A program made the position numbers and the translations under genes. DNA of 35,459 nucleotides from a virus. Positions 15,742 to 28,710 of this stretch are shown piece after piece; position 1 is the first letter of the stretch; each line of letters starts with the position of its first letter. The stretch spans positions 1 to 35,459 of IMG/VR virus record IMGVR_UViG_3300022198_004726; one strand, written 5' to 3'. Under the pieces are notes generated by a model, which saw only the letters and a program-made list of their open reading frames with translations, was not told the DNA's origin and made no database searches.

Positions 15742-18700
15742 TATCCATTGCCCCCATAAACTGCTGGATCAACTGATTCTAGGAATCCTTCACCATTTGC
15801 ATTTGCTGCTTCTCTTATCATTCCTATGATATTTCCTCTTTGTGTGTATAACATGTTTTGTACACTTTGTCCATCTACTGCATTAATTGTAAAGTTGACA
15901 TTTGTTTCTCCTTTACCAAGTGCGTAGTTTGGTGTAATTGAAGTACCTCCAGGGAATGTTGCTACTTCAGGTCCGTTTTCTCCGACTACTACTGAGTTAG
16001 TACCCATATTATAGCCTCGTCGACCCATTGCAGCTCCTGGGAAACTTGCTCCAGCTCCTCCAAGATTTTGTCCTGTTGTTCTTCCTCCTCTCAGATAGTT
16101 AAGCTCTCCAGAGGTTGCTCCTTGTGAAACATCAACAGCATTTGATCTTCCGCCAATACTCAAAGCTGTATTTACTGCTTGAGGTTCATCTCCCCCACCG
16201 CCTTGAAATTGTTGTCTTTTGATAATTGCAATTTGTGCAAGACCCATAGCTAGTTGTAATCCAGCAAGTATCGGTCCAATTATTGGCCCAAGTTCTAAGG
16301 CTCTTGTAACACCTAACGCTGTACTAATAATCGCAGAAGCAATATCCATTTTCTTCTTCTGTTCAAAAGCTTTTCTCTGGATCATTTCTTTTTTCTTTTC
16401 CATTGCTCTAATTTTTGCAACAGATTCAGCAGATTTACCATCTCTTTTCTTTTCTGCTTCTATTTGTTGATCTATATTTGCGACTTGTGCTTTTGCTGCA
16501 GCTTGTTGAATTGCTCCAATTGCTAGGATTGCATTTCCTACAGCTGCCATTCCCTCTGCACTTGCAAGACCTTTATCTTTAATTACATCAAAAGAAGATG
16601 CAAGAGTAAATAATCCTTGCTGTGCTACAGAAATTAATTCTCCTTCTGGGCCTAATGCTTCTAATTGTTCTCTCATTGGTGCAAGAGCATCAGTCATTAA
16701 TTCTAATCTGCCTTGTACAGTTTTTCCTGCATTTGTTTCACTTTCTATTTTGGCAGTATCAAATGCATCTCCTACATCTGCAAAAATTCCTCCTTGCAGT
16801 CCTTCAAATCGACTTGCTCCTACAGTTGTTTGATCGCTTTCTGCTTGTTTTATTTTTTCCTTTGTAATATTTTGCTGAATTCCTAATTGTTCTTTAAGAC
16901 CTGATATTAAAGTAGTTTGAGCATCCCCAACAATTCCTTCAGCAGTTAGTCTTATTTCTGCAATTTTTATTTCAAATTCTCCTCGAGATTGCATAAGAGC
17001 AAGTTCATCTTTTAAGAACTTAACTTTATCTGCTGCTGCTTTAATCTCTGCTTCTAATTTTTGAGCATCAGATAGTTTTCCACCTCTTCCTGCTTTAATA
17101 TTACTTAAAATTGCTTCATTTTTTACAGTAGTTGCTAGAGTACTATTTATTTCTCTAGTTAATCCAAGTTGTTCTTTAAGCAAATCATTTTTTGCAAGAC
17201 CCATCATTGCTAGTCTTTCTTCTGCACCTATTTCAGCAACTTGTTCTTTTCTTAATTCATTTCTTTGCTCAAGTAGTTTTGCATACTGTCCTTGCTTTTC
17301 TGCATCTAAGTTTGCTATTTGTTCTTCTGTAAATCTTGCGCCTTCAGCTAACCCAAGTCTTTGTTCTTGGAATTTAATTTCATTTGAAAGTCTATCTTGA
17401 TTAATCTGTGATTGTCTATTTGCTAGGTCTATGCTAAGTCCAACAGAAGCTTCATTTGCTTTATTATATTTGTTTACAGAAGCTTCCTGTGCTTTTAATA
17501 TATCAAGTCTTGCTTTATCATATAGCTGTGCTTCTACTATTGCATTTACAAGTTTTTCAGCATCTGCTAAAGATTTTTTATATGCTTCTCCTAATTTATA
17601 TTCTTCTCTAACTTGTGCTTTAAGTTCCTCTGTAAGTTCTACTCCATAAGATTGTAATATTTCAAACTCTCCCTCTACCTCTTTTAGAATTTGTTTTACT
17701 CCCTCCCCATTTTCTACAAAATCTTTAAATGCTCCTGATAACCCTGCACCTTCTTTCCCTTCTAGTATATCTATTATTGCAGAGCTTGATAAAGTACCTT
17801 CAACCTCTTTTATATTTCCATTTATTTCTTTAAGAATACTTTGAAAAGTAGAAAATCCTGTCTTTTTTGTAAAAGTATTAAAAAATTCTGCTATTTTTTC
17901 ATTACTGTTTTGAAAAGCTTCTCCTAATCCTGAAGTTGCAGTTTTATTTGCTACAGATTGTTTTGTGCCTTCTTTTAAAGCTGCTCCTAATAATTCTTGG
18001 TACTCTACACTTGTAATTACTCCATCGTCTAAAATTCCGATTTCTTTTACCAATTCTGCAAGTGAACCATTTAAACCTACAATATTTCCATCTGCATCTC
18101 TTGTTGCGTTGGCTATAGATTCAGCAAACTGATTTATATTATCGGTACCTAAAAACTCTGATAACTCTCTAGAAGCTTCTCCAGTTCCTCTTAATACAGT
18201 TTGAAAACTTTCAAATTCTGCACTTGTAGAGGCTACTGACCCAAATATATTTAATGTTGCTGTATTTGCTGCTTTTTTCCTAGATTCTGCTAGTGCATCG
18301 AGTTCTCCAGTGAGTCTTTGAATTTCTGCTGCATTTGTATTTTCATCAATTAATGCTATGGGTTCTATTCCTGAGTCCCTATTTAAAAAATTTATAGTTT
18401 TAATTATTAAATTAATAAAAGGAGCAAGATCTTGTTGCATTTTTAATACTGCAATTTTAAAATTAATTGATAATCGTGTAAATGCGCCCTCAAAAGGAGC
18501 AAACATTCTAGCCATTTTCATGCCAATAAATTCTATCTCTCTTCCTACTGTATTAAGTAGTTTTCCAAATATACCTACTTCTTCATTTGCTTTTTGTTGT
18601 TGATCTGTTTGTTCTTGTGTTGCTTTTATTAATTCTTCAACAGCATTTCCTGAAGCCACAACTTGTTCTTTTGCACTTCTAGTTGCTTCTGCTGCAGCTG

Positions 18701-26381: not shown

Positions 26382-28439
26382 TTATGCTGATTTGTACATA
26401 AATGCCCACTTAGAAGTTGCACCATCGATAAGATCAATGAAGCCAAGTCTTTGTGAAGCTACAAGTACTCTTCTCTGATTAGCTACTTCGTAATCTGACT
26501 CAACAGTCACACCACGTAGTCTTGGCATCACATAGTTTCTTGTGTAGACAGCTACTGCACCAAATTTTGCTGCAGCTTTTGTTGCGAATTCGTCACAGAG
26601 TAAAACTCTTGATCCGAATACCTGTCCGATTTCACCAGAAAGTTTTGTTGCCAAATCGCCAACTAGGTTAGCATCTTGGAATTCAGCGTCTTCTAGCAAG
26701 TTGTAATATACGTCTTGTGATACGACATAAACTACGTCTTGTGGGTTAACGCCATATTTACCCATATTCTTTCTTAAAGTAAGAAGGTCAGCGGCTGTTA
26801 CAGAGTCAGAAGCTGAGAAAGTTCCTGCTGGCTGTGTGTAGTCACTGTCATTTCTTGCTAAGTGTAATAGACCTTCAAAAGAAGCACCGCCAGTACCGAA
26901 AGCACCGTCAGCATCGTCACCTGCTAGAATAGCATTCTCGATGGCTCTTGCGTGTGATCTTACCATTGATTCTCTGATTAGAGGAAGAATTGGTAAAATT
27001 GCATCTTCTTCAGTTTCATTACCTAAGTATGATTGTGAAATAAGTTTCTTGGTTGAAAGAGTTCTTTCAGTCATAGTTACCCCACCGAATGGTGCGCCAT
27101 AAGTGTCGCCTCTTTCAGCTAAGTTACCTGTTGGTGATGAACCAGAAGCTGTTTGACCTGAAGCGAATTCAGCGTAACCACTATCTGGTAAAATTGGGAT
27201 AATCATGTTTGCAGAAGTCATGGTGATCTCTCTAAATAGAGGGGCCAAGACTAATTCATTTTGAATATCTCTTTCGATATTTGTTGAAACAACTTGCTCG
27301 AAATCAGCAGATGAAACGCTTATACCTGAGTGTGCGTTTACTTTTTGCATAATATCTTTAGCATATTTGTTTTCCCAGCCTTTGCCTGTGGCAAGACCAG
27401 CAAATTTTGCATCAATAATATCTCTTTCAAAAGCTTTTTTCCAGTCGCCTTCACCTTTTCTATCAGAGAAAACTCTTTTGCTTTCTCTAATTTTCATGAT
27501 TTCTTCTGATTTTTCTGCTAATTGAGCTTCTAAAGATTTGACCACTGACTCTAAGTTAGAGTAGTTGGAGTCAAGTCTTTTCTCAACATCTTGCATCAAT
27601 TTTTCAGCGCCTGATAGTCCAGCTTGAACTATAGTTTTTTGCTCTTCTTGTTTTGCTTCCTCAGCGGCTTTTTGAACCTCAGCTTCTTGAGCAGCTTTTT
27701 CAGCAGCTTCCTCAGCAGCTTTTTGCTCAGCAGCCTTTTGCTCGGCTTGTTTCATTGCGATAGAAGCAGCAGTATCTTCTGCAACTTTTTTAGCAAATGC
27801 TTCAAGATCGAACTCGGGTTTGCTTACAGGAGCTTGTTTTTCATTTGACATATTAGTCTCCATTTCTTGGGCTATTGCCCCGTTTGGCTGCTCAATTTCA
27901 ACAGCGTCTGCTGAATCGTTTGAGTTAGCCTTGTAAAAAGATTGCTTATACTTATTATATGCTTCCATAGAATCAAAAGACTTTGCCATTCCAAAGGTTG
28001 CCCCTTGGTTGCAAGGTACTGATACTACTGAAACTTCAAAAAGTTCCGCGTCCTTTATTCTGTATCCATCGGTCTCTGTCATGTAGTCAGCATCCTTAAC
28101 ACGGAAACCGACAGAAAAAGCCCCAAGGACACCATCTTTAATTAGTTGTGTTACATCACCTGCAGCTTTAGATATCTTTGCAGATATTTCTAAACCTTGA
28201 TCTGTAACTTTTAAATCTTTTGCTCTACCGATTGGTTTATCGTAGTTGTGATTGAAAAGAATAATTGGATTATTTTTAAAGTTTTCTAAACCGCCTTTAG
28301 TCCATGCTTCTGTTTCAATAATGTCTCCAGCTCTATCTATACCATTTGTGCTAGCAGAACCTTTGATTTCGACTCCTCCATCATCAGTTTCACCCAATGA
28401 TTTAAAAGTGCTAGTCCAGTGATAGATTTTATTCGACAT
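26382..28439 (-). CDS. Prohead protease - scaffold - major capsid protein fusion
   Basis: A 685-residue protein with three parts. Residues 1-150 are a U35/HK97-type prohead protease: catalytic His64 (FNHNY) and Ser109 (GAFSVGF), with ELFEVSVVSVP at 132-142. Residues about 205-325 are a charged Ala/Glu/Lys/Gln coiled coil, equivalent to the scaffolding delta domain. Residues about 330-685 are an HK97-fold capsid protein (ISVSSADFEQVV; DVVYVVSQDVYY; GSRVLLCDEFA; end SKWAFMYKS). In HK97 these functions are in two genes. An internal ATG with a good GGAG (27851) could produce scaffold-capsid alone. The start at 28439 overlaps the previous gene by 11 bases. Confidence 0.92.
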   Translation of the reverse strand: MSNKIYHWTSTFKSLGETDDGGVEIKGSASTNGIDRAGDIIETEAWTKGGLENFKNNPIILFNHNYDKPIGRAKDLKVTDQGLEISAKISKAAGDVTQLIKDGVLGAFSVGFRVKDADYMTETDGYRIKDAELFEVSVVSVPCNQGATFGMAKSFDSMEAYNKYKQSFYKANSNDSADAVEIEQPNGAIAQEMETNMSNEKQAPVSKPEFDLEAFAKKVAEDTAASIAMKQAEQKAAEQKAAEEAAEKAAQEAEVQKAAEEAKQEEQKTIVQAGLSGAEKLMQDVEKRLDSNYSNLESVVKSLEAQLAEKSEEIMKIRESKRVFSDRKGEGDWKKAFERDIIDAKFAGLATGKGWENKYAKDIMQKVNAHSGISVSSADFEQVVSTNIERDIQNELVLAPLFREITMTSANMIIPILPDSGYAEFASGQTASGSSPTGNLAERGDTYGAPFGGVTMTERTLSTKKLISQSYLGNETEEDAILPILPLIRESMVRSHARAIENAILAGDDADGAFGTGGASFEGLLHLARNDSDYTQPAGTFSASDSVTAADLLTLRKNMGKYGVNPQDVVYVVSQDVYYNLLEDAEFQDANLVGDLATKLSGEIGQVFGSRVLLCDEFATKAAAKFGAVAVYTRNYVMPRLRGVTVESDYEVANQRRVLVASQRLGFIDLIDGATSKWAFMYKSA
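27849..27861 (-). promoter_or_regulatory. Internal ribosome binding site and ATG for scaffold-capsid product
   Basis: Within the fusion gene GGAG at 27861-27858 is followed after six bases by ATG at 27851 (residue 197, MSNEKQAPV). It falls exactly between the protease domain and the coiled-coil scaffold. Initiation here would give a 489-residue scaffold plus capsid protein without protease. Confidence 0.6.
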
Positions 28440-28710
28440 CTTCTTTCTCCGCTTTCTTAGCAGGTGCTTTTTTAGCTGCTGCTTTTGGGGCGGGTTTTGG
28501 AGCTGGTGCTGGTGCTGGAGCTACTTCTACTGGATGTCTTTTTTTCATCGCAGATAGTACTCTTGTCCAAGAACCAAATGCTCTTCTTAGAAGATAGTCT
28601 TTAACTGGTACATCATTTCCAAACTCTTTGTAAGTAGGTAGATCCATAGTTTCTACGCCCTTTTTAACAAAGAACTCAGATAATGCTTTTGCCATCATAT
28701 CTTTTGTCAT
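28429..28710 (-). CDS. Small FGSW protein with AP/AK-rich tail, between portal and protease
   Basis: A 93-residue protein. Residues about 22-58 (LPTYKEFGNDVPVKDYLLRR, then AFGSWTRVLSAMKKR) match the spacing of homing-endonuclease-associated helical repeats, which end in a FGSW-x-x-(V/A)L pattern and bind DNA. The last 35 residues are an Ala/Pro/Lys-rich flexible tail like those of histone H1-like proteins. It begins just after the portal stop and overlaps the protease-capsid gene by 11 bases. The domain match is from memory of the motif; a DNA-binding or packaging role inside the head is inferred. It could also be an assembly factor. Confidence 0.6.
   Translation of the reverse strand: MTKDMMAKALSEFFVKKGVETMDLPTYKEFGNDVPVKDYLLRRAFGSWTRVLSAMKKRHPVEVAPAPAPAPKPAPKAAAKKAPAKKAEKEDVE

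Follow-up and report, generated by a model that had tools for sequence, protein, structure and literature searches.

A conserved candidate internal start preceded by a covarying RNA element in the fused protease-scaffold-capsid gene of uncultured T5-related phages

Introduction

Each phage head requires hundreds of capsid subunits (775 in the capsid of T5; PMC5292684), whereas the number of proteases needed is presumably much smaller, and the protease has to be inside the shell. A gene that joins protease, scaffold, and capsid in a single reading frame raises the question of how these needs are reconciled. Such a gene is present in a 35,459-base record from an uncultured tailed phage, which is referred to here in its entirety as the window. 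It had been suggested in an initial annotation that an internal start codon yields the capsid-bearing portion alone, along with a small amount of the fusion. The evidence assembled below leads us to regard it as very probable that this is a nested gene, in which internal initiation gives a 489-residue scaffold-capsid protein and the full-length fusion delivers the protease into the prohead. This arrangement would meet both needs, the fusion being packaged in the role of a capsid subunit while the dose is set by internal initiation; since ribosomes would also start midway, much capsid and little protease could be made. If this is true, annotation of the gene as encoding a single 685-aa capsid protein is wrong about its main product.

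Organization of the Fused Gene

The protease, the scaffold, and an HK97-type capsid domain occupy one 685-codon frame (Table 1), a reading of the initial annotation that is borne out by Pfam, by AlphaFold2, and by fold matches to the capsids of DT57C and T5. Pfam assigns residues 37-158 to Peptidase_S78 and residues 385-666 to Phage_capsid, and the His64 and Ser109 that had been singled out in the protease are unchanged in 47 of 47 diverse relatives. In the AlphaFold2 model (mean pLDDT 67.5) the protease extends to residue 172, scaffold helices span residues 212-320, and the capsid begins at residue 333, with pLDDT values below 50 at all but one of residues 168-226. Searches of the PDB by sequence and by fold both rank the capsids of DT57C and T5 highest, and the profile match to a 458-aa T5-type capsid protein spans the scaffold too. 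When the 299-aa T5 capsid chain 5tjt is aligned with the fusion, its residue 2 falls opposite residue 367, which would place the N-terminus of the mature capsid protein near residue 366. The start of the fusion overlaps the 3' end of an upstream gene of 93 aa by 11 nt.

Table 1. Features of the fused head gene, in window coordinates.
Feature	Position	Strand	Basis or remark
Fused gene (prohead protease, linker, scaffold, HK97-fold capsid)	26382..28439	(-)	One frame, 685 codons
Shine-Dalgarno sequence of full-length fusion, GGAG, 7 nt from ATG 28439	28447..28450	(-)	Sequence
Protease domain, S78 family, residues 1-172, His64 and Ser109	27924..28439	(-)	Pfam PF04586, AlphaFold2
Low-confidence (disordered) linker, residues 173-211; codons hold RNA element and internal start	27807..27923	(-)	pLDDT
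RNA element, 5' part	27886..27930	(-)	Compensatory changes; invariant rare codons GAG183, CAG184
P1, GGCU with AGCC	27930-27927 with 27889-27886	(-)	G-C/A-U changes
P1b, CUCAA with UUGAG	27924-27920 with 27895-27891	(-)	A-U/G-C changes
P2, CAGC with GCUG	27913-27910 with 27905-27902	(-)	C-G/U-A changes
3' hairpin P3, GGGC (27880-27877), loop AAUA, GCCC (27872-27869)	27869..27880	(-)	Compensatory changes at 3/4 pairs; loop variable
Internal Shine-Dalgarno sequence, GGAG	27858..27861	(-)	Kept in 157/157; spacing 6 nt
Internal start codon ATG (M197)	27849..27851	(-)	Kept in 157/157; aligns with separate T5-like capsid starts
Predicted nested product, 489-aa scaffold-capsid (coordinates with stop)	26382..27851	(-)	Sequence reading
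Scaffold (delta-domain-like) helices, residues 212-332	27444..27806	(-)	AlphaFold2 helices 212-320; PDB profile match
HK97-fold capsid domain, residues 333-685	26385..27443	(-)	Fold matches to DT57C and T5 capsids

The Internal Start Site in the Near Family

The internal site reads as had been described, with GGAG at 27861-27858, the six-base spacer ACTAAT, and the ATG of residue 197. Its location had been given as exactly at the border of protease and scaffold, which is fair, because M197 falls within the low-confidence stretch of residues 168-226, between the end of the protease (172) and the first scaffold helix (212). The frame of the 489-residue remainder is likewise confirmed, the product itself being a prediction from that frame. 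A check of conservation among related fusion genes, which the initial annotation had called for, was carried out on a near family of 157 distinct fused relatives (72-100% identical) collected in three IMG/VR scans; the GGAG and ATG are invariant in all of them, and an SD-like site with an ATG recurs at the same border in more distant clades (see below), so that the loss of conservation named beforehand as a refutation was not seen. In comparison, the Shine-Dalgarno (SD) sequence upstream of the entire fusion is much more variable across relatives (GGAG, GGAA, GAGG, AGGT, and GGGG).

Conservation of this kind might reflect the encoded protein rather than the nucleotides. It could be proposed that only the full-length fusion is made, so that all capsid subunits bear a protease, which frees itself by autoproteolysis, and that the GGAG and ATG are coincidental or belong to a conserved protein motif, E-T-x-M-S, that serves for example as a site of cleavage. 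Fused genes with a processed capsid are known, the record of Lactococcus phage c2 giving a mature protein start at codon 206, and members of the near family do retain E-T-x-M-S at the protein level. However, the residue preceding the conserved GAG varies between Met, Thr, and Lys (ATG in 110, ACG in 43, and AAG in 4 of the 157), whereas the third-position G of its codon is constant, even though ACG makes up only 2.8% of the Thr codons in these genes; this argues that selection acts on nucleotides. GAG itself is used at codon 194 in 157/157, against 26% in overall usage, and the codon pattern is unchanged in 44 clusters sharing less than 90% identity. The Ser codon after the internal ATG is TCA in 156 of 157, and the strongest synonymous constraint in the gene lies mostly just 5' of M197, around residues 166-200. 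These frozen synonymous sites, the retention of the SD and ATG in distant clades that lack the protein motif, and a covarying RNA that a fusion-only scheme would leave unexplained make it very unlikely that the full-length fusion is the sole product.

The frame is open throughout in 80 of the 80 nearest relatives. Stops were seen in two relatives, and could be sequencing errors or real: L178:2501-4567 (+) carries a single TGA at protease codon 113, with its internal start and capsid frame open, and L142 has a stop at codon 580. A nearly invariant GAC-N6-GUC, folded by RNAalifold as a 3-bp stem, brackets the start codon (27858-27847, minus strand).

The Internal Start Site in Distant Clades

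A profile scan, together with one of GTDB genomes, yielded more distant relatives, with capsid identity down to 34-44%, and 24 representatives with pairwise identity below 80% were compared. An SD-like site with an ATG was found at the protease/scaffold border in 23 of the 24 (21 automatically and 2 by eye), a count that is favored somewhat because the first SD-preceded ATG within a stretch of 50 residues was accepted, and that overstates independence because members of a clade are related. There are few ATGs in any 50-residue stretch, so chance explains little of this result. The last representative, L275, has only a weaker GAGAG. For background, the other in-frame ATGs of 24 diverse fused genes number 314, and just 18 have an SD-like 4-mer at a working distance; a chance SD was rejected on the basis of this rate together with the conservation.

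Linker length and protein sequence differ widely among the distant clades, in which MDPKEL, MENND, or MNPED replaces the protein motif while the SD and ATG are kept. In the 24 representatives the region of the SD and start is predicted to be more accessible than elsewhere (0.57 vs 0.42, p = 1.6e-7).

A Structured RNA Element in the Linker Codons

A conserved RNA structure, which did not feature in the initial annotation, spans 70 bases upstream of the internal SD and reveals a folded RNA hidden within a coding region. Stems P1, P1b, and P2 are followed by hairpin P3, a short spacer, and the SD. Among 32 diverse aligned sequences, pairing holds in 95.9% of cells and six base pairs show compensatory changes; double changes occupy 38 cells compared with 13.5 in shuffles, none of 500 shuffles reaches 38, and pairing falls to 20-40% when the partners are slid by 1-3 columns. 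P3 occurs as GGGC/GCCC, GGGA/UCCC, GAGGA/UCCUC, and CCGC/GCGG, P1 as GACU/AGUC in L021 and L273-like genes, and P2 as CAGU/ACUG in L258-like genes. Codon choice is fixed as well: residue 190 is encoded by TCC, 4% of Ser codons, in every case in which it is Ser, and by GCC, 5% of Ala codons, in every case in which it is Ala. Relative to synonymous recodings, the lowest folding z of the gene (-3.5) belongs to the segment starting at residue 166. A second well-folding segment, with z about -3 against synonymous recodings, covers residues 101-127 in the protease-coding part (28140-28060, minus strand).

No match to Rfam 15 was obtained at 27800-28000 up to E = 1. A covariance model of the element (R1) finds it only at the capsid gene, a second match in the window (17490-17593, E = 0.5) having been dismissed as noise; among the split genes of T5-like phages R1 gave no matches.

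Inverted repeats covary in DNA too, and covariation by its nature cannot separate RNA from DNA, so the conserved stretch might act as an internal promoter or protein binding site that gives rise to a separate capsid transcript. Since its position follows that of the SD and start codon even where clades have unrelated sequences, and inspection by eye revealed no suitably spaced -35 and -10 sequences, a role in DNA is considered highly improbable. The location of the structure between two domains in coding sequence also brings to mind programmed frameshifting, whereby free protease would be released in the linker with the RNA as stimulator. The SD and ATG, however, are 3' of the structure, and there is no conserved slippery site or out-of-frame stop; the spacers ACTAAT or ACTGAT would provide -1 stops, but 49/157 relatives have ACA at the codon concerned. 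Frameshifting is consequently given next to no weight.

The distant clades differ in sequence, but in most of them a hairpin closes 1-9 bases before the SD. Compared with synonymous recodings, the 36-base stretch folds more stably in 24/24 representatives (mean z -1.65), the excess in hairpin rank outside the close clade being modest (KS p = 0.024). No clear hairpin precedes the SD in L250, L251, and L262. A further possibility is that the folded element serves mainly to process or stabilize mRNA, with an upstream nuclease cut producing a capsid-only mRNA that has a protective 5' structure and on which the internal SD is used. The compact fold immediately ahead of the SD would be in keeping with a protected 5' end, and such a scheme is compatible with internal initiation; however, three distant clades without the hairpin keep the SD, and processing as the main function is judged unlikely, though it deserves consideration.

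The GCUG of P2 may alternatively pair with the downstream CAGC (GCUGUU/GAGCAGC, 27917-27886, minus strand), and because it can pair with either flanking copy of CAGC, two mutually exclusive folds are possible. The alternative fold is thermodynamically good, but compensatory changes favor P1 with P2. It may be speculated, with some reservation, that the RNA embedded in the coding sequence is subject to regulation, for instance through binding of a phage head protein or a switch between pairings, and sets the protease-to-capsid ratio over the course of infection. If this rather unlikely suggestion is true, the element would define a new family of RNAs controlling capsid dosage, one carried by abundant uncultured phages.

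Proposed Expression and Assembly

The sequences themselves show the fused frame, the conserved internal SD and ATG, and the covarying RNA structure. From these we infer that both proteins are made, and likewise their ratio, their co-assembly, their cleavage, and an action of the RNA on translation. Ribosomes starting at 28439 would produce the full protease-scaffold-capsid fusion, and those starting at 27851 on the same mRNA would produce the scaffold-capsid protein. The internal product would build most of the prohead, and the fusion would co-assemble by way of the scaffold and capsid domains that the two have in common, carrying the protease inside. The protease would then remove the scaffold and itself by a cut predicted near residue 366, so that a single mature capsid protein remains. 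The linker RNA stops only a few bases short of the SD. Its probable effect is to hold the SD and start codon free of pairing and to help ribosomes load there; instead, or also, it may be a processing or stabilizing site.

Comparison With Other Nested and Fused Genes

Nested protease genes are familiar from other viruses. In lambda C/Nu3 an in-frame start is nested in the protease gene, and in herpesvirus UL26/UL26.5 the long form has the protease and the nested form only the assembly part. The herpesvirus genes follow an equal logic, but with separate transcripts, for scaffold only, and in a eukaryotic virus. With lambda C/Nu3 and Mu I/Z the present gene has in common an N-terminal protease and a conserved in-frame internal start with an SD at the domain border; in Mu I/Z and Mu-like phages this start gives the C-terminal part of the protease gene alone (PMC4378225). 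The nested product of lambda and Mu is scaffold only and the capsid is separate, whereas here it would comprise the scaffold and the major capsid protein. The covarying RNA before the internal start is a further difference from these phages.

The protease of Salmonella phage Gifsy-2 is ClpP-like, whereas that encoded here is of the Peptidase_S78 family. As here, protease, middle region, and capsid share one gene in Gifsy-2, its tripartite capsid gene (Effantin et al. 2010, as listed in PMC8538268). Fused protease-capsid genes are also described in Rhodobacter RcC phages (PMC8601537) and in Paracoccus prophages and Lactococcus phage c2 (PMC6536676); the Paracoccus fusions have ClpP-type proteases, unlike the S78 protease here (PMC6536676), and the passages on the Rhodobacter RcC and Paracoccus fusions report no internal start (PMC8601537, PMC6536676).

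In gene l5 of phage c2 (L313:9418-10860, plus strand), codon 131, a possible internal start, is an in-frame ATG accompanied by AAAGGAG and located at the protease/coil border. The site is kept in the c2-like phages examined despite nearby indels, and a similar one is present in the distant relative GE1. The c2 gene thus resembles the present one as a protease-coil-capsid fusion with an SD and ATG at the equivalent border, but it differs in its unrelated capsid, its long 11-nt spacer, and the lack of a hairpin adjoining the SD. The similarity of the site offers a cultured system.

No report of a nested start for the major capsid protein within a protease-capsid gene was found in the open-access literature, a search that does not amount to proof of absence. 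Nested protease/scaffold genes and protease-capsid fusions are already known, and the apparent novelty lies in a major capsid protein that is itself nested, with a structured internal start ahead of it.

Fused and Split Head Genes

The fused gene occurs across a large group of T5-related phages that are uncultured and mostly marine. Among cultured phages the closest are T5-like (Demerecviridae), all with less than 60% identity, and tblastn covers both their protease and their capsid. These proteins (the protease and the pb8 head protein) are homologous to those encoded here, and the gene order of terminase, portal, small gene, protease, and capsid is similar; in all T5-like examples examined, however, protease and capsid are two genes. 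M197 aligns with the start Met of the separate T5-like capsid gene, and the T5-like protease stop is found 8-20 nt before the capsid ATG, adjoining the SD, so the split and fused arrangements differ mainly by that stop. The proposal of internal initiation made in the initial annotation hence gains strong support, at the level of sequence comparison, from the conservation of the site, from the constant third-position G's and rare codons, and from this equivalence of M197 with a T5-like capsid start.

All distant relatives with both domains have them fused, save the T5-like group, which is split throughout, and the capsid tree shows one change between the fused and split states, which in an unrooted tree may be read as either fusion or fission. 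The tree suggests that little beyond a stop ahead of an existing start separates the fused from the split head genes, which would make gene fusion and fission easy. The Moraxella Mcat phages and Salmonella phage 118970_sal3 had been suspected of carrying fused genes and were set aside, being annotated with separate ones.

Longer fusions of 761-1040 codons in one frame occur in L252:416-3535, L261:899-3547, and L257:1622-3904 (plus strands), in which protease, scaffold, and capsid are preceded by an extra N-terminal domain with a match to Hva1_TUDOR; L276 looks similar to these Hva1_TUDOR-bearing genes.
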